From: Pseudorhodobacter turbinis
GTDB taxonomy: Bacteria > Pseudomonadota > Alphaproteobacteria > Rhodobacterales > Rhodobacteraceae
DNA length: 64,000 nucleotides
Reading direction: 5' to 3'
Assembly: GCF_005234135.1 (NCBI RefSeq)
Contig: NZ_CP039964.1
Span: forward strand, 930,001-994,000
Shown: piece after piece, positions 14,019 to 58,706 of the stretch
How the letters are laid out: each line of letters opens with the position of its first letter
How positions within the stretch are numbered: the stretch's first letter is position 1
The notes under the pieces: generated by a model
The model's database searches: none
Told to the model about the DNA's origin: nothing
The model's input: only the letters and a program-made list of their open reading frames with translations
Translations under genes and position numbers: made by a program

Positions 14019-15050
14019 TTAGACCGCATGGGGCACGGCAGTGTCTGATCGAAAGTCTGTGTCATCAACCCACATCCGGTGCAGGATCACCCCGATGCGC
14101 CGGGCTAACGCGACCATGGCGCGCTTACCACCTCTGCGGCGGGCGACTTGCGCTGCCCATGTTCTCAGCCAGGTCGAACGCCCGCGGTGCAACATCACGG
14201 TCGCAGCCTGACATAGCGCGCGACGCAGGTTGACATCACCTGCCTTGGTGATGCCGCCTGAGACATCGCGTTCGCCCGACTGGTTGCGTGATGGTGTCAT
14301 GCCGACCCACGGGCCAACATTCTTGGAAGATGTGAACCGGGTGGGATCATCGACGGCTGATCTGTAGGTTAGCGCGACAACAGCTCCCACTCCAGGCATC
14401 GACATAAGTCGACGACAGACTGGGTCATCCTGAGCCATCTGACGGACAAGGCGTTCCAATCCCGCCAGCTCCTTTCGCAAGGATGCCCGTGCCAGAAGCA
14501 TAGGGCCTGTCGCGGCCTCCAGCATCGAATTACCGTCCGCCAATTCGCGGATTCGGTGTTCATACCTGCCCCGAGAGATAGCACCAACTTTCAACCCAAA
14601 GTTCCGCAACAGCCCACGCATAGACATTTCTAGGGCGATCATACCTTGCTGGATGGCCTTTCGGGCACCGAGCACGGCACGAACTTCTTGCGCCGAGACG
14701 GATTTGCAGTGAACGGGCCGGAACCAGCCAAGGTGAAGCAGGCGCGCAATGCCCTCGGCATCCCGCCGGTCCGTCTTGATTGGCATCGCCTTCAGGGCGC
14801 CTTTTACCTGGCGGGTTTCCATCAGGACGACTTCAAGCCCTGCAACGCTCATTGCGCGATGTAACCATTGAGACAATGGGCCAGCCTCGAGCCCAATGGC
14901 GGCAATAGTGCCGTCCTGTTCGCGGGCCCAACGCACCAATTCTTCAGGTTCACTGGCGACCTGCGCTTCTTTCACGATCTTGCCATGCTCGCTGATCACG
15001 CAAATTGCGGTCTTTGCCAGCGATACATCCAACCCAACAAACAGTCTCAT
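14019..15050 (-). CDS. IS110-family transposase (DEDD, apparently intact)
   Basis: A 343-residue transposase from start MRLFVGLDVSLAKTA. The RuvC-like DEDD residues are visible as Asp8 (FVGLDVS), Glu55 (IGLEAGPL), Asp94 and Asp97 (KTDRRDAE). The C-terminal Tnp_20 domain has 'MSMPGVGAVVAL', 'WVGMTPSRNQSGERD' with the catalytic-type Ser, and 'GGITKAGDVNLRR'. No frameshift or stop is present. IS110 elements have no classic inverted repeats or target duplications and are now known to use a structured non-coding RNA to choose targets. The right edge abuts an IS5-family remnant. Confidence 0.93.
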   Translation of the reverse strand: MRLFVGLDVSLAKTAICVISEHGKIVKEAQVASEPEELVRWAREQDGTIAAIGLEAGPLSQWLHRAMSVAGLEVVLMETRQVKGALKAMPIKTDRRDAEGIARLLHLGWFRPVHCKSVSAQEVRAVLGARKAIQQGMIALEMSMRGLLRNFGLKVGAISRGRYEHRIRELADGNSMLEAATGPMLLARASLRKELAGLERLVRQMAQDDPVCRRLMSMPGVGAVVALTYRSAVDDPTRFTSSKNVGPWVGMTPSRNQSGERDVSGGITKAGDVNLRRALCQAATVMLHRGRSTWLRTWAAQVARRRGGKRAMVALARRIGVILHRMWVDDTDFRSDTAVPHAV

Positions 15051-15244
15051 CCTGTAGCCCTCCATGTGGATCCAATACGGGATGGTCGACAAATTGCCCC
15101 TGATCTTGCAAGCGGTAACAGGCAGTGTGCAACGCAGGCCCCGTTACGGCATCTCATTAATCGTCAATGGCAAAACAATACGACTGCAGCAAGAGCTATG
15201 GCGGAGAAGAATACTTTGGGGCACCTATCGTAGCGTGTTGTCAC

Positions 15245-42749: not shown

Positions 42750-42922
42750 GCTATCCACTCCGACTGTTCGGACTGCAGAATGTCAGTTTACAGACGGAGG
42801 GCAAGGGCCACAGGGCCATTTGACCGGAAATCAGGAAGGGTATCTTATTACCCTTTGTTTACCTTAGGTTAATTAATCACCCCGCCATTCGTTGAACGCA
42901 TAGCTGCAATGCAGCAATGGCC

Positions 42923-42951
42923 GTTGTGCAATCGCAGCATATGCCCCATCT
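42923..42951 (+). promoter_or_regulatory. RpoH-type promoter for the DUF1127-ccsR locus
   Basis: A -35-like GTTGTG at 42923 and a -10-like CCATCT at 42946 (within GCCCCATCT) are separated by 17 bp, matching the alphaproteobacterial heat-shock sigma pattern (CTTGAA, 17 bp, CCATNT). A start about 7 bp downstream gives a leader of roughly 45 nt. The orthologous R. sphaeroides locus is RpoHI/HII dependent. rpoH itself lies in this window. Confidence 0.65.
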
Positions 42952-43005
42952 TACTAACAACAGCGCGACAAGATGCGCTTTGAATGAAAAGAAGCGAGAC
43001 TTAAA

Positions 43006-43221
43006 ATGGCTTTTACAAGCACAACATCCGTCGGCAGCCTAGGCCTCATGGACCGCATCGCAAACGTTGTGAAGTCCACCAAAGAAGCCTTGCATCGCCG
43101 CCGCGTCTATAACCAGACCGTATCGGAACTGCGCGGCCTGTCGACGCGTGAACTGAATGATCTGGGCATTGCCCGCGGCATGATCACCCGTATCGCCCTT
43201 GAAGCGGCCTACGGGAAGTAA
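43006..43221 (+). CDS. ccaF1: DUF1127 RNA-binding protein, CcaF1 type
   Basis: A 71-residue protein with a C-terminal DUF1127 domain ('ELRGLSTRELNDLGIARGMI'), an Arg-rich middle (HRRRVYNQ) and a basic helical N-terminus. In R. sphaeroides the 71-residue DUF1127 protein CcaF1 is an RNA-binding factor transcribed together with the CcsR RNAs and aids their maturation. The four CcsR-like units begin 13 bp after this stop codon, so orthology is well supported by context. Confidence 0.88.
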   Translation: MAFTSTTSVGSLGLMDRIANVVKSTKEALHRRRVYNQTVSELRGLSTRELNDLGIARGMITRIALEAAYGK

Positions 43222-43234
43222 CATCTGAATTCAT

Positions 43235-43303
43235 ACAAGAGCCTTTCTCCTCCCTCAGGCTCTTGTGTGACAGCGGCGACACTCCTCCTCCCTTGTGTCG
43301 CCG
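43235..43303 (+). ncRNA. ccsR1: CcsR (Cuckoo) sRNA unit 1
   Basis: Two adjacent hairpins, 7 bp apart, with pyrimidine loops. Hairpin 1 has 10-bp arms ACAAGAGCCT/AGGCTCTTGT and loop TTCTCCTCCCTC (one change from the motif). Hairpin 2 has 9-bp arms CGGCGACAC/GTGTCGCCG and loop with CCTCCTCCC at 43284-43292. This is the paired-hairpin layout of Cuckoo RNAs. Confidence 0.88.
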
Positions 43304-43339
43304 ACCTTATACGAAAACTTCGGTTTTCATGAATACCAA

Positions 43340-43409
43340 CCGGTTCCTCCTCCTCCCTGAGCCGGATGGGATATGCAGCGGCCCCTATCCTCCTCCCGGG
43401 GGTCGCTGC
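43340..43409 (+). ncRNA. ccsR2: CcsR (Cuckoo) sRNA unit 2
   Basis: Hairpin 3: arms CCGGTTC/GAGCCGG (one G-U pair) with CCTCCTCCC at 43349-43357. Hairpin 4: arms GCAGCGGCCCC pairing with GGGGTCGCTGC-type sequence and CCTCCTCCC at 43389-43397. They are 9 bp apart. A UUCG-capped hairpin (GAAAAC/GTTTTC at 43313-43328) separates this unit from unit 1. Confidence 0.88.
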
Positions 43410-43456
43410 GCAAAGTTTCAGGGTGCAGGTCTTCGTGATCTCCCCAAAGCAGATGC

Positions 43457-43525
43457 CCGGCCTCTCCTCCTCCCTGGCCGGTCGTAAACGTGGCGGTCCC
43501 TATCCTCCTCCCGGGGGCCGCTACG
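43457..43525 (+). ncRNA. ccsR3: CcsR (Cuckoo) sRNA unit 3
   Basis: Hairpin 5: arms CCGGCC/GGCCGG with CCTCCTCCC at 43466-43474. Hairpin 6: long arms from CGTGGCGGTCCC to GGGGGCCGCTACG (G-U pairs included) with CCTCCTCCC at 43504-43512. Spacing 7 bp. Hairpin 6 is similar in sequence to hairpin 4, suggesting unit duplication. Confidence 0.88.
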
Positions 43526-43562
43526 AAACCTTTGGGTCGTGCTTTGCACAACCCTACTGCCA

Positions 43563-43639
43563 TTGTCCGTCCCTTCCTCCTCCCTTGAGGGTACGGACAA
43601 GATGGAACGGCGGCGCGCTCCTCCTCCCTGCGCGCCGCC
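43563..43639 (+). ncRNA. ccsR4: CcsR (Cuckoo) sRNA unit 4
   Basis: Hairpin 7: arms TTGTCCGT/ACGGACAA continued by CCCT/AGGG past one bulge, with CCTCCTCCC at 43576-43584. Hairpin 8: 10-bp arms GGCGGCGCGC/GCGCGCCGCC with CCTCCTCCC at 43620-43628. Spacing 8 bp. Last unit before the downstream hairpin. Confidence 0.88.
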
Positions 43640-43681
43640 TGTTTCCCCCTCCCCGATTTTCATATTTGCTTTGCACAGCAC

Positions 43682-43725
43682 TTTTGCGCCGGTGAACCCT
43701 GTTCACAGACGCAAAATGCAATTTT
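43682..43725. terminator. hairpin between ccsR4 and uvrD, likely bidirectional terminator
   Basis: TTTTGCG (43682) pairs with CGCAAAA (to 43716), with an inner stem GTGAAC/GTTCAC and a 3-nt loop. The A and T runs on both sides would let it end the ccaF1-ccsR transcript (rightward) and the uvrD transcript (leftward). Confidence 0.6.
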
Positions 43726-53185: not shown

Positions 53186-53211
53186 AACTACCCCCTCTAC
53201 TCCACCACTGC

Positions 53212-53394
53212 TGGTGTCATGGTGCCTCGGGGCGACTCGGGGTTAAAAGGAAAGCCGGTACGGTCAGTTTGCCCGAAAGGGCGCTGCCACCGCAATTGTA
53301 AGTGGTTCGCAACGTTAACATATAGCTTGGGGTGTAGGCCTTGAGGTGTTGGCCGCGTAATGGGAACCGAGCCGGAAAACCGACCCTGACACCA
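53212..53394 (+). ncRNA. cobalamin (AdoCbl) riboswitch controlling nrdHIEF
   Basis: Closing helix P1 pairs TGGTGTCA (53212-53219) with TGACACCA (53387-53394). Inside are the family's conserved blocks: TTAAAAGGAAAGCCGGT, GCTGCCACCGCAATTGTAA (B12 box region, compare GCTGCCCCCGCAACTGTAA) and TGGGAACCGAGCC. About 110 nt then lead to nrdH, room for an expression platform. With cobalamin present this should switch the class Ib reductase off in favour of a B12-dependent class II enzyme expected elsewhere in the genome. Confidence 0.9.
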
Positions 53395-53505
53395 AAGACG
53401 AAACCGCGCAGCGGGCGTGAATACGTGATTGGAAACAGGACCGAAACCTGCTTTAATCATGTGCCACACCCGCGCATTAAAAACACTGATAAAGGGGCCA
53501 CAGGC

Positions 53506-53731: not shown

Positions 53732-54145
53732 GTGACCCGGCTTGTCTATTACTCGTCGGCCTCTGGAAATACGGCGCGTTTCATTGCACAATTGGGTCTA
53801 GCTGCTGCGCGAATCCCTGTTCGCCCGAACGACCCTATGCCGGATCTTGTTACACCCTATGTGTTGATCTGCCCTACCTTCGCCGATGGCGAGGGGCGTG
53901 GGGCAGTTCCAAAACAAGTGATCCGCTTTTTGAATGATCCATCACGCCGCGCGGGCTTGCGCGGCGTTATTGGCGCCGGAAATCGTAACTTCGGCACAAC
54001 CTATGCTTGTGCTGCCGACGTGATCTCCGCAAAATGTAATATCCCCGTGCTCTACCGGTTTGAGCTGGCGGGAACCGAAACCGATATCACCCGTGTCCGA
54101 ACGGGCCTTGCCGAATTCTGGGGGACTGAATGCTCGACGTCGTAA
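53732..54145 (+). CDS. nrdI: flavodoxin-like protein NrdI
   Basis: A 137-residue FMN protein that supplies the oxidant to assemble the Mn(III)2-tyrosyl cofactor of NrdF. The phosphate loop is '[14 protein letters not shown]', followed by '[13 protein letters not shown]' and '[14 protein letters not shown]'. Start GTG at 53732, 4 bp after the nrdH stop, gives the usual NrdI N-terminus. Overlaps nrdE by 16 bp. Confidence 0.92.
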
Positions 54146-56253
54146 AGCCTGCGCTGGATTACCACGCATTAAATGCCATGCTAAACCTCTATGATGATGC
54201 GGGGAACATCCGCTTTGATGCTGACCGCAAGGCTGCACGAGAGTATTTCTTGCAGCACGTCAATCAAAATACCGTTTTCTTTCATAGCCTTGATGAAAAA
54301 CTCGGCTATTTGGTCGAGGAAGGCTATTACGAAGGCGAAGTGCTGGATCAATATTCCAAGAACTTTCAGCGCAAGATCTGGGAGGCAGCATTTGGCGCCA
54401 AGTTCCGTTTTCCGACCTTCCTTGGGGCGTTCAAATATTACACCAGCTACACGCTGAAAACCCGTGACGGGCAGCGCTATTTGGAACGCTATGAGGACCG
54501 TGTGGTCATGGTCGCCCTTGCGCTGGCCCGCGGTGATGAAACCCAAGCCATGCGCTTTATGGAAGAGATCATCGCAGGCCGCTTCCAGCCCGCCACGCCG
54601 ACGTTTTTGAACGCAGGCAAGGCATCACGCGGCGAGCTGATTTCGTGTTTCCTGCTGCGGCTCGAAGACAACATGGAAAGCATCGGTCGCGGCATCAACT
54701 CCGCGCTGCAACTGTCCAAGCGTGGCGGCGGTGTGGCCTTGATGCTGACCAACCTGCGCGAGGCGGGTGCACCGATCAAAGGGATCGAGAACCAGTCCTC
54801 GGGCGTCATTCCGGTGATGAAACTGCTAGAAGACAGCTTTAGCTATGCCAACCAATTGGGCGCGCGTCAGGGTGCGGGGGCGGTTTACCTCAATGCCCAC
54901 CACCCCGATATTTTCCAGTTCCTTGATACCAAGCGCGAAAATGCCGATGAAAAGATCCGCATCAAAACCCTGTCGCTTGGCGTGGTGATCCCCGATATCA
55001 CCTTTGAATTGGCCAAAAAAAATGAGGATATGTACCTCTTCTCGCCGCATGACGTGGCCAAAGTTTACGGCGTTCCCTTCTCGGAAATCTCGGTCACCGA
55101 GAAATACGCCGAGATGGTGGATGACAAGCGGATCAAGAAAAAGAAGATCAACGCGCGGGAATTTTTCCAGACCATCGCGGAAATCCAGTTCGAATCCGGC
55201 TACCCCTATGTGATGTTCGAAGACACCGTGAACCGCGCCAACCCGATTGCGGGCCGGATCAGCATGTCGAACCTGTGTTCGGAAATTTTGCAGGTCAACC
55301 GCGCGTCGGAATTCAATGACGACCTTAGCTATTCCAAAATGGGTACCGATATTTCGTGCAACCTTGGCAGCCTGAATATTGCCGCCACGATGGACGGCCC
55401 CGGTTTCGGCGCCACGATTGAGGCCGCCGTGCGCGCGCTGACGGCTGTGTCCGAGATGTCGGCGATCGATTCCGTGCCCTCGGTCCGTCACGGCAATGAT
55501 GAGGCCCATGCCATCGGCCTTGGCCAGATGAACCTGCACGGCTTCCTTGCGCGCGAACGCATTCACTACGGCAGCTCGGAAGGCGTCGAATTCACCTCCG
55601 TTTACTTTGCCGCCGTTGCCTATCACGCGATCCGCGCCTCCAATCTTTTGGCGCAAGAGCGTGGCAAGACTTTCGTCGGCTTTGAGGATTCAACCTATGC
55701 GGACGGGTCGTTCTTTGACAAATATACCACCCGTGACTGGCTCCCCACATCCGAGGATGTCACCCGTGTGTTTGCCAACATCACCCTGCCCACTCGCGCC
55801 GATTGGGAGGTGCTCAAGGCCGATGTCATGGCCCACGGGCTTTACAATCGTAACCTGCAAGCGGTGCCACCGACCGGTTCGATCAGCTATATCAACAACT
55901 CCACCTCCTCGATCCATCCGATTGTCTCCAAGATCGAAGTGCGCAAGGAAGGCAAGATCGGCCGCGTCTATTACCCGGCCGCCTTCATGAACAATGACAA
56001 TCTGGAATACTACCGCGACGCCTATGAAATCGGGCCGGATGCGATCATCGACACCTATGCTGCCGCGACCGAACATGTGGATCAAGGCCTGTCCCTGACC
56101 CTGTTCTTCCCCGCTGAGGCTACGACGCGCGATATCAACCGCGCCCAGATCTATGCCTGGAAAAAGGGCATTAAAACCATTTATTACATTCGCTTGCGTC
56201 AATCTGTCCTTGAAGGGACAGAGGTTGAAGGCTGCGTCTCCTGCTCGCTGTAA
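54130..56253 (+). CDS. nrdE: class Ib ribonucleotide reductase large subunit NrdE
   Basis: A 707-residue catalytic subunit. Active-site region '[14 protein letters not shown]' with a catalytic Cys, '[16 protein letters not shown]', '[18 protein letters not shown]' and '[18 protein letters not shown]' are in place, and the C-terminal Cys pair (EGCVSCSL) is the shuttle reduced by NrdH. No N-terminal ATP cone is present, as usual for class Ib. Start overlaps nrdI. Confidence 0.97.
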
Positions 56254-57313: not shown

Positions 57314-57658
57314 ATGCAACGCGATCAGATCAACGCCTTTTGCCGCGCCCTTCCGGCCACAACTCATGTCGTGCAATGGGGTGGCTCCGATGTGTGGAAG
57401 GTTGGCGGCAAGGTCTTTGCCATCGTCAGCGCGGAAGGGGTATCGTTCAAGACATCGGAACTTATGTTCGAAGTGCTGGGCCACGAAGAGGGCATTCGCC
57501 CTGCCCCCTATCTGGCCTCACGCGGGTTCAAATGGTTGCAGCACTATGGCCCGCCCGGCGGATTACCCGATGCCGAGCTGGGCCAAGCACTTGAAACCTC
57601 TTACGAGATGATACGCGACGCCTTACCGCGCAAGACACGCGCCGAATTGGGGGTTTAG
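57314..57658 (+). CDS. MmcQ/YjbR family protein
   Basis: A 114-residue protein of the MmcQ/YjbR (CyaY-like fold) group: 'HVVQWGGSDVWKVGGKVFAIVS' and 'SRGFKWLQHYGP' are family hallmarks. Often annotated as DNA-binding, without firm proof. Preceded by the nrdF terminator; its stop overlaps that of the convergent rpoH gene by 4 bp. Confidence 0.8.
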   Translation: MQRDQINAFCRALPATTHVVQWGGSDVWKVGGKVFAIVSAEGVSFKTSELMFEVLGHEEGIRPAPYLASRGFKWLQHYGPPGGLPDAELGQALETSYEMIRDALPRKTRAELGV

Positions 57659-58551
57659 GCGGGGATCGCCATCCCCTTTTCGCGCGCAAGCTCTCGCATT
57701 TTGTCTTGCAGCTTTTCAAACGCCCGCACTTCGATCTGACGGATACGTTCGCGCGATACGCTGTAGGTTTCCGAAAGCTCTTCCAGCGTGACAGGCACCT
57801 CGTTCAAACGGCGCTGTACCAAGATGTCCTTTTCGCGGTCGTTCAAGACAGACATCGCCTCGATCATCATCTCGCGGCGGGTGTCCATCTCATCCTTTTC
57901 GGCGTAATCATTGGCTTGATCGCTGTCTTCATCCTCAAGCCAGTCCTGCCATTGCGTAGACCCCTCGCCGTCAGAGCCCACCGTCACGTTCAACGAGGCA
58001 TCCCCCCCCGACATACGCCGGTTCATAGAGATCACCTCTGCCTCTGTCACGTTCAATTCAGTGGCAATCCGGGCGACGTTTTCAGGGCGCAAATCGCCCT
58101 CTTCCAGCGCGCCGAGTTTGGACTTGGCTTTGCGCAGGTTGAAAAACAGCTTCTTTTGCGCCGAGGTCGTGCCAAGTTTTACCAAAGACCATGACCGCAG
58201 GATATATTCCTGAATGCTGGCGCGAATCCACCACATCGCATAGGTCGCCAAACGGAACCCCTTTTCGGGATCAAAGCGTTTCACCGCCTGCATCAGGCCC
58301 ACGTTCGCCTCCGAGATCACCTCGGCCTGCGGCAAGCCATAACCACGGTAGCCCATTGCAATTTTCGCCGCCAGTCGCAGATGCGAGGTGACCATTTTAT
58401 GCGCCGCCGTGCTGTCTTGGTGGTCCACCCAGCGTTTGGCGAGCATGTATTCTTCTTCAGGTTCCAACAGGGGAAACTTGCGGATTTCCTGCATATAGCG
58501 GTTCAGGCCCTGTTCGGGGCTTGGGGCTGGCAGGTTTGCATATGTACTCAT
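57655..58551 (-). CDS. rpoH: RNA polymerase heat-shock sigma factor RpoH
   Basis: A 298-residue sigma-32. Region 2 includes 'LVTSHLRLAAKIAMGYRGYG'-type sequence and 'EANVGLMQAVKRFDPEKGFRLATYAMWWIRA', the RpoH box region 'QKKLFFNLRKAKSKLG' follows, and region 4 has 'VTLEELSETYSVSRERIRQIEVRAFEKLQ'. Three ATGs stand in tandem; the third (58551) is used because it leaves 6 nt after GGAGG, whereas the first leaves none. Directs heat and oxidative stress genes, probably including ccaF1-ccsR in this window. Confidence 0.95.
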   Translation of the reverse strand: MSTYANLPAPSPEQGLNRYMQEIRKFPLLEPEEEYMLAKRWVDHQDSTAAHKMVTSHLRLAAKIAMGYRGYGLPQAEVISEANVGLMQAVKRFDPEKGFRLATYAMWWIRASIQEYILRSWSLVKLGTTSAQKKLFFNLRKAKSKLGALEEGDLRPENVARIATELNVTEAEVISMNRRMSGGDASLNVTVGSDGEGSTQWQDWLEDEDSDQANDYAEKDEMDTRREMMIEAMSVLNDREKDILVQRRLNEVPVTLEELSETYSVSRERIRQIEVRAFEKLQDKMRELAREKGMAIPA

Positions 58552-58706
58552 CATCATCCTCCGTCCCGCATTCGGTCTATGCCGTGCCCGGGCTTGGCAA
58601 ATTTAGGTATCGCATAGGGGGCAACTGCGCCCTTACCTGCGTTAAACCCAAGATGTGCCTAGTTCCGTCGGTTTGCCAGAATTATGTCTGCCCGATCACG
58701 CATATG

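Follow-up and report, generated by a model that had tools for sequence, protein, structure and literature searches.

A ccaF1-CcsR-type operon in Pseudorhodobacter turbinis with a conserved double promoter box resembling the LsrB/VtlR site

A short DUF1127 gene followed by a series of hairpins in Pseudorhodobacter turbinis raises the question of whether this locus is the counterpart of the ccaF1-CcsR1-4 operon of Rhodobacter sphaeroides and, if so, which factors turn it on. We analyzed the locus within the window, the whole 64,000-nucleotide stretch of DNA under study, and compared it with related loci and genomes. Table 1 shows the positions of the features. The initial annotation had claimed a 71-residue DUF1127 gene and an rpoH gene in the same window, and both were found.

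Table 1. Features of the locus and candidate regulatory genes (window coordinates unless a contig is named)
Feature	Position	Strand	Basis
Box A CGCATAGCTGCAATG, LsrB/VtlR-like, 3 mismatches from the Brucella 15-mer	42897..42911	+	fits consensus GCAT-N3-TG-N3-T
Box B TTGTGCAATCGCAGCA, overlapping the proposed -35	42924..42939	+	conservation among loci
RpoH-type -10 CCCCATCT; hexamer CCATCT at 42946-42951, 16 nt after TTGTGC	42944..42951	+	sequence
ccaF1 homologue, 71-aa DUF1127 protein	43006..43221	+	PF06568, E 1.3e-11
Hairpin pair 1, CcsR-like unit; loops TCTCCTCCC then CCTCCTCCC	43232..43303	+	RF02791, 47.3 bits, E 2.4e-10; folds
Hairpin pair 2, CcsR-like unit	43336..43409	+	RF02791, 47.6 bits, E 2.1e-10; folds
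Hairpin pair 3, CcsR-like unit	43453..43525	+	RF02791, 41.9 bits, E 9.8e-9; folds
Hairpin pair 4, CcsR-like unit; weak T tract after the last hairpin	43564..43643	+	RF02791, 27.3 bits, E 2.1e-4; folds
rpoH, candidate sigma factor for the -10	57655..58557	-	NCBIfam TIGR02392, 367 bits (cut-off 323)
LsrB-like LysR gene	contig C2: 233784-234647		protein match, 46% identical to class-level LysR

Exact copies of CCTCCTCCC occurred seven times in the 64-kb window, all on the plus strand from 43284 to 43628, against a mean of 0.38 and a maximum of 2 in shuffled windows. The eighth loop, TCTCCTCCC, was at 43246, and all eight hairpins folded, just as had been described (seven exact loops and one changed). 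The folding energy of the hairpin region was -207.1, compared with a shuffle mean of -146.7 (z -10.7), and none of 100 shuffles was as low. The four regular pairs also stood, each 72 to 80 nt long; the spacings came out slightly different (3 to 6 nt between the hairpins of a pair instead of 7-9, and 32 to 43 nt from pair to pair instead of 36-47), since the end of a stem can be set differently. Of the 23 copies of CCTCCTCCC in the whole genome, the seven behind the DUF1127 gene formed the sole cluster. TGTTTC directly followed the last hairpin, and a scan limited to loops of at most 8 nt found no Rho-independent terminator at the 3' end of the array. Both flanking genes are on the opposite strand; the upstream one presumably encodes an Mrp-like ATPase and the downstream one a UvrD-like helicase. 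Elsewhere in the window, a Cobalamin riboswitch (RF00174, 52 bits) at 53203-53402 precedes, by about 730 nt, a large plus-strand frame (54130-56253), which we take to be a ribonucleotide reductase, and we assume that the frame at 14019-15065 resembles an IS110-type transposase.

The CcsR1 covariance model (RF02791) matched all four pairs with E values from 2.1e-10 to 2.1e-4 (27-48 bits, gathering score 65.3), and the alpha-r14 model matched three of the pairs, all below gathering. The Rfam check that had been proposed was thus positive in its four CcsR1 matches and negative at the gathering score, which none of them reached. CcsR1 matches were found in 31 of the 61 genomes searched, our own included, and in 9 of 9 within the genus. 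Because only 2 of the 31 matching genomes reached the gathering score while 29 remained below it, we consider the threshold strict and the locus not odd. The nearest named matches of the DUF1127 protein were from P. aquimaris (85% identical) and then from other Pseudorhodobacter. With four CcsR1 matches, a DUF1127 gene directly upstream and a like arrangement in relatives, it is virtually certain that the locus is a cuckoo (CIN1) operon of the ccaF1-CcsR kind and corresponds in Pseudorhodobacter to ccaF1-CcsR1-4, as the initial annotation had proposed. The operon itself is essentially known biology in a new genus.

The arrangement was then followed in 76 named loci collected via the DUF1127 protein (77 with the window; a few contigs end inside the array). 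At least one hairpin lay behind the DUF1127 gene in 75 of the 76 and at least two in 72, with 1 to 15 hairpins across the 75 loci that had any and the first loop 19 to 180 nt past the DUF1127 stop codon. The reverse strand of the same stretch contained no hairpin in any of the 77 loci. Pairing was usual, not universal: L022 and L028 carry 14 and 15 motifs at about even spacing. Since pairing and number vary among relatives, the "four CcsR RNAs" are one state of a variable array. L022, L025 and L028 have long arrays of 11 to 15 motifs, mostly evenly spaced and without the usual pair organization. In P. wandonensis, equal-scoring CcsR units follow one another in regular 117-nt steps on two contigs, one of which ends there (L020 and L033; G007 contigs C24 and C45), either because the units were amplified recently or because the assembly breaks inside the array.

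We then analyzed the promoter region. The letters were as first read, with GTTGTG at 42923, 17 nt and CCATCT at 42946. The description of these as an RpoH-type promoter held for the -10, CCCCATCT, which fits RpoH. The GTTGTG -35, on the other hand, proved to belong to a longer and more widely conserved element, TTGTGCANNNGCAGCA, accompanied by an upstream box, and the best conserved stretch of the aligned upstream regions was not the -10. This element, box B, was exact in 70 of the 77 loci and had two mismatches at most in 73; it was absent in L064, L065, L071 and L099, of which L071 also has no array and L099 retains a clear box A. A two-hairpin cuckoo without a clear box accounted for the CcsR1 match in G045 (L027), and the CcsR1 match in G047 (L030) was rejected as spurious, the motif being absent.

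The upstream box A was compared with the Brucella VtlR (LsrB) box, for which we used the 15-mer TGCATGGCTGCATTG, the reverse complement of the VtlR motif as printed in the available text of PMC12595884. All 73 box B loci had a box A within four mismatches of it and 68 within three (one mismatch in 14 loci, two in 29, three in 25 and four in 5), counts that are not independent, the loci being related and box A having been defined after the alignment was viewed. Among 7,278 control 45-mers taken from other parts of these loci, three mismatches or fewer were found in 0.03% and four in 0.4%, and shuffled sequences behaved alike. In the window, GCATAGCTGCAATG at 42898-42911, upstream of the -35, satisfies the looser VtlR consensus GCAT-N3-TG-N3-T given in the text seen of PMC7486931. 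Of the published consensus letters, the T at position 9 of the box was kept in only 7 of the 73 loci. Box A and box B started 27 or 28 nt apart in 71 of the 73; for the other two, L035 and L085, the scoring had picked an overlapping register at 19, and an equal match lies at about 27. The -10 was more variable, with CCATNT in 35 loci, TANNNT in 24 and other sequences in 14. CCATNT was typical of Rhodobacter and Pseudorhodobacter relatives and TANNNT of many Roseobacter relatives, with the exception of L078, L081, L084, L092 and L095, which are on the Roseobacter side and have CCATNT.

The strict two-box pattern had matches in 157 of the 296 Rhodobacteraceae genomes, and the reversed pattern had no match in any of them. 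It occurred once per matching genome except in G350, G392 and G453, and the single site in our genome was the ccaF1 promoter. When 30 strict-pattern sites were fetched, all 30 had CTCCTCCC within 1,100 nt downstream, 29 of them two or more copies and L239 one (counted as sequence motifs, not folds). A DUF1127 frame lay between box and array in 27 of the 30, so that the box tracks the array more closely than it tracks the protein. In the other three (L233, L244 and L257), where no such frame was detected, the bipartite box is directly followed by 8 to 10 CTCCTCCC motifs. In an earlier set of 28 Rhodobacteraceae loci (L001-L029 less L027, our own included, partly overlapping the named loci), both boxes were present at 27-28 nt in 26, and L008 and L016 miss one. 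Box B alone was unspecific: it was found in 61 of 289 class-level genomes, and the reversed control was occasionally found too. In the 30 loci fetched from this box B search (L128-L157) no candidate for box A came closer than 6 mismatches, and no CTCCTCCC followed. Our genome has 12 other box B sites with at most one mismatch, and the four at which box A was sought (L107, L109, L110 and L114) were all negative.

A second, small cuckoo-like locus was observed on contig C3 (70,154 bases), at about 1900-3645 of L228 (C3:15500-20500). Two DUF1127 frames are followed there by two hairpin-like sites with the motifs GCTCCTCCC and CCTCCTCCC. In the fold of the second site the loop holds the motif (-26.3 kcal/mol), and the first folds only with the motif partly paired (-14.0 kcal/mol). 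Degenerate box A-like copies upstream have 4 to 5 mismatches. The divergent gene at this locus is, we assume, a LysR different from the LsrB-like one described below.

Rhizobial LsrB (VtlR) is reported to activate AbcR sRNAs, DUF1127 genes and NfeR1, an alpha-r14 (cuckoo-type) sRNA (PMC7486931, PMC12595884 and PMC10746234, in the parts available). A search with the LysR protein encoded beside trxB in a class-level genome returned one match in our genome at E 1e-40 or better (Table 1). When this protein was compared with all PDB sequences, the best match was 9HH1 at 236 bits and the next scored 99; 9HH1 is described as the structure of Agrobacterium LsrB (PMC11975290, in part). Identity to Agrobacterium LsrB was 77% over residues 1-65, the DNA-binding domain, and 40% overall. 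We regard the protein as a putative LsrB orthologue, judging from best matches; no NCBIfam model reached its cut-off among the matches listed. Of the 23 family genomes searched, 22 had the gene; G003 (87% complete) had none, and G009 had a second, weaker match. Unlike the rhizobial trxB-vtlR order, trxB in our genome has no LysR neighbor. Because the rhizobial cysteines C144 and C273 are replaced by V and A, leaving C190 as the only cysteine, the orthologue may answer another signal. In 3 of 7 class-level LysR loci (L188/L219, L189 and L190) a 3-mismatch box lay just downstream of the LsrB-like gene. This is only suggestive, since the same scan found boxes with three mismatches or fewer inside trxB-like coding sequence (L188, L189, L191 and L194). 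At L219:4639-4860, the trxB-LysR pair is directly followed by a sequence resembling box A and by a SorX-like sRNA match that falls slightly short of gathering; in Agrobacterium, abcR1 is reported to lie just downstream of the LsrB gene (PMC7486931, in part). Taken together, the sequence comparisons make direct control of the operon by this LsrB-like LysR, as a predicted activator, reasonably likely.

It could be argued that the operon is simply RpoH driven and that the upstream boxes belong to another factor or to an extended promoter, unrelated to any LsrB-type protein. The -10 and the presence of rpoH would agree with this, as does the ascription of the R. sphaeroides operon to RpoHI/RpoHII in the text available from PMC10253847 and PMC8307010, and the LysR protein is also present in four genomes that gave no CcsR1 match (G009, G012, G016 and G022). 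However, CCATNT occurs in just 35 of 73 loci that all carry both boxes, and box A agrees with the VtlR site far better than the controls do; the boxes downstream of LsrB-like genes point the same way, though suggestively only. We therefore consider control by RpoH without an LsrB-type protein rather unlikely.

The loops and arms of the hairpins were analyzed next. With no fold filter applied, all 383 distinct sites carrying the exact motif folded below -8 kcal/mol, with a mean of -18.3. When 3' arms were swapped between loci, the mean rose to -9.95 kcal/mol with 63.5% below -8, and when they were swapped within loci, to -10.3 kcal/mol with 66% below -8. Native sites thus fold far better than swapped ones, indicating that the arms covary site by site; about two thirds of the swapped hairpins still fold below -8 kcal/mol because the arms share a C-rich/G-rich bias. 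A single-hairpin covariance model had no base pairs, since loop lengths differ in the ungapped alignment, and was set aside. Loop changes at positions 1 to 9 numbered 50, 17, 5, 2, 0, 2, 2, 3 and 4 among 451 fold-filtered hairpins, a set chosen with up to two mismatches allowed, so that loop variability is underestimated. These folds and counts support the earlier view that the loops are fixed while the arms vary, with structure under selection. The nearly invariant core, UCCUCCC, is complementary to GGGAGGA and contains the anti-Shine-Dalgarno CCUCC, and the proposed loop match to that sequence was thereby confirmed. The core is, however, shifted relative to the 16S tail, an arrangement that suits ribosome-binding sites of mRNAs as targets. 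We consider it quite probable that the hairpin RNAs have anti-Shine-Dalgarno action.

On the other hand, the hairpins might mainly bind CcaF1 or RNase E, as a sponge or processing platform, rather than act as base-pairing sRNAs. In R. sphaeroides, CcaF1 and RNase E reportedly work together in CcsR maturation (PMC10253847, in part), and the wide range in hairpin number would suit a dosage effect. Against a sponge stand the 3 of 30 box-linked arrays without a detected DUF1127 frame, the finding that the loop is invariant while the arms change, the reported CcsR target mRNA flhR (PMC8307010) and the reported action of NfeR1 anti-Shine-Dalgarno motifs on targets (PMC7143759; both sources in part), so that this alternative appears quite improbable. 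That the repeats are a chance or selfish array without function, to which the differing lengths and the identically scoring tandem units of P. wandonensis might lend themselves, is already contradicted by the CCTCCTCCC count against shuffles, the fold z of -10.7, the arm-swap test, the loop conservation, the fixed site after DUF1127 and the family-wide linked promoter element, and was rejected.

Returning to anti-Shine-Dalgarno sRNAs, we searched our genome for GGGAGGAG and GGAGGAGG with an ATG 3 to 11 nt on and obtained 16 and 17 matches. From 20 target regions fetched, 13 gave an open frame of at least 60 aa starting at such an ATG, and the 10 of these that were scanned included soxA, a GntR regulator, an acetoacetyl-CoA reductase and, as components of transporters, an ABC ATPase, DcuC and three periplasmic binding proteins. 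The candidate site at ugpB may not mark the true start of that gene. We treat the list as leads only, not shown to be enriched over ordinary ribosome-binding sites.

The explanation that we favor, and hold to be likely, is a ccaF1-CcsR operon with anti-Shine-Dalgarno sRNAs under a sigma-32-like -10 together with an LsrB/VtlR-type LysR activator. Transcription would start from the -10 and would need the activator, predicted to be the single LsrB-like protein of the genome, at box A; the same protein would probably be bound at box B as well. One transcript would encode a small RNA-binding DUF1127 protein and the four hairpin-pair RNAs, the CU-rich loops of which would mimic the anti-Shine-Dalgarno sequence. 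RNase E, aided by CcaF1, is reported to cut the precursor into sRNAs in R. sphaeroides and may do so here. To judge from the R. sphaeroides papers, the operon would also be induced by stress. The loops would then pair with purine-rich ribosome-binding sites, mainly via UCCUCCC with GGGAGGA as target, and the paired sRNAs would repress a set of mRNAs.

The conserved double box in the promoter, resembling an LsrB/VtlR site, is apparently new. In the literature searched, which was consulted in part and did not extend to the founding CcsR, CcaF1 and cuckoo papers, no text tied LsrB/VtlR to CcsR or placed it in Rhodobacterales, and four R. sphaeroides papers dealing with CcaF1 or CcsR contained no word beginning with LysR. 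If our reading of the promoter is true, it names the missing activator of a stress-sRNA family so far ascribed, in the texts available, to sigma factors, and links two separately studied sRNA systems. It would also mean that an LsrB-like protein occurs outside Rhizobiales, contrary to a 2025 paper that, in the part available, states LsrB to occur solely there (PMC11975290). A broader proposal seems to us evenly balanced between true and false: that throughout Rhodobacteraceae an LsrB/VtlR-type LysR activator constantly targets the cuckoo array via the bipartite box, with a -10 that is sigma-32-like on the Rhodobacter side and in a few others and sigma-70-like in many Roseobacter relatives; that the regulator extends beyond Rhizobiales; and that the split rhizobial targets (DUF1127 genes and anti-Shine-Dalgarno sRNAs) and the Rhodobacter operon derive from one ancient LysR-cuckoo-DUF1127 circuit, in which the array is able to stand without DUF1127.

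Among known systems, ccaF1-CcsR1-4 of Rhodobacter (Cereibacter) sphaeroides (RF02791; CIN1, cuckoo) shares with this locus the 71-aa DUF1127 protein, four hairpin-pair RNAs in the 3' region, CCUCCUCCC loops in paired hairpins and an RpoH-like -10. The arm sequences differ here, and the Rfam scores are below gathering; the nearest named relative compared was Cereibacter changlensis, the locus of which (L039) has 12 hairpins. The NfeR1/alpha-r14 sRNAs of rhizobia (RF02344) likewise carry an anti-Shine-Dalgarno motif in their hairpin loops, on stems that vary, and LsrB is reported to bind the NfeR1 promoter and activate it by way of a TGCA-N6-GCAT motif (PMC10746234, in part). NfeR1 differs, as far as the available text goes, in being a stand-alone sRNA with three hairpins (PMC7143759) and a sigma-70 promoter, and its motif is printed with N6, whereas most boxes here and the Brucella box have N5. 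The VtlR/LsrB regulon of Agrobacterium and Brucella (abcR, DUF1127 genes and vrsA) is alike in the DNA-binding domain (77%), in a box A like the published 15-mer, and in having DUF1127 genes and sRNAs as targets. The present locus has both target types in one operon, with a second box, box B, added and a sigma-32-like -10, and the trxB synteny and the conserved cysteines of that regulon are missing here.
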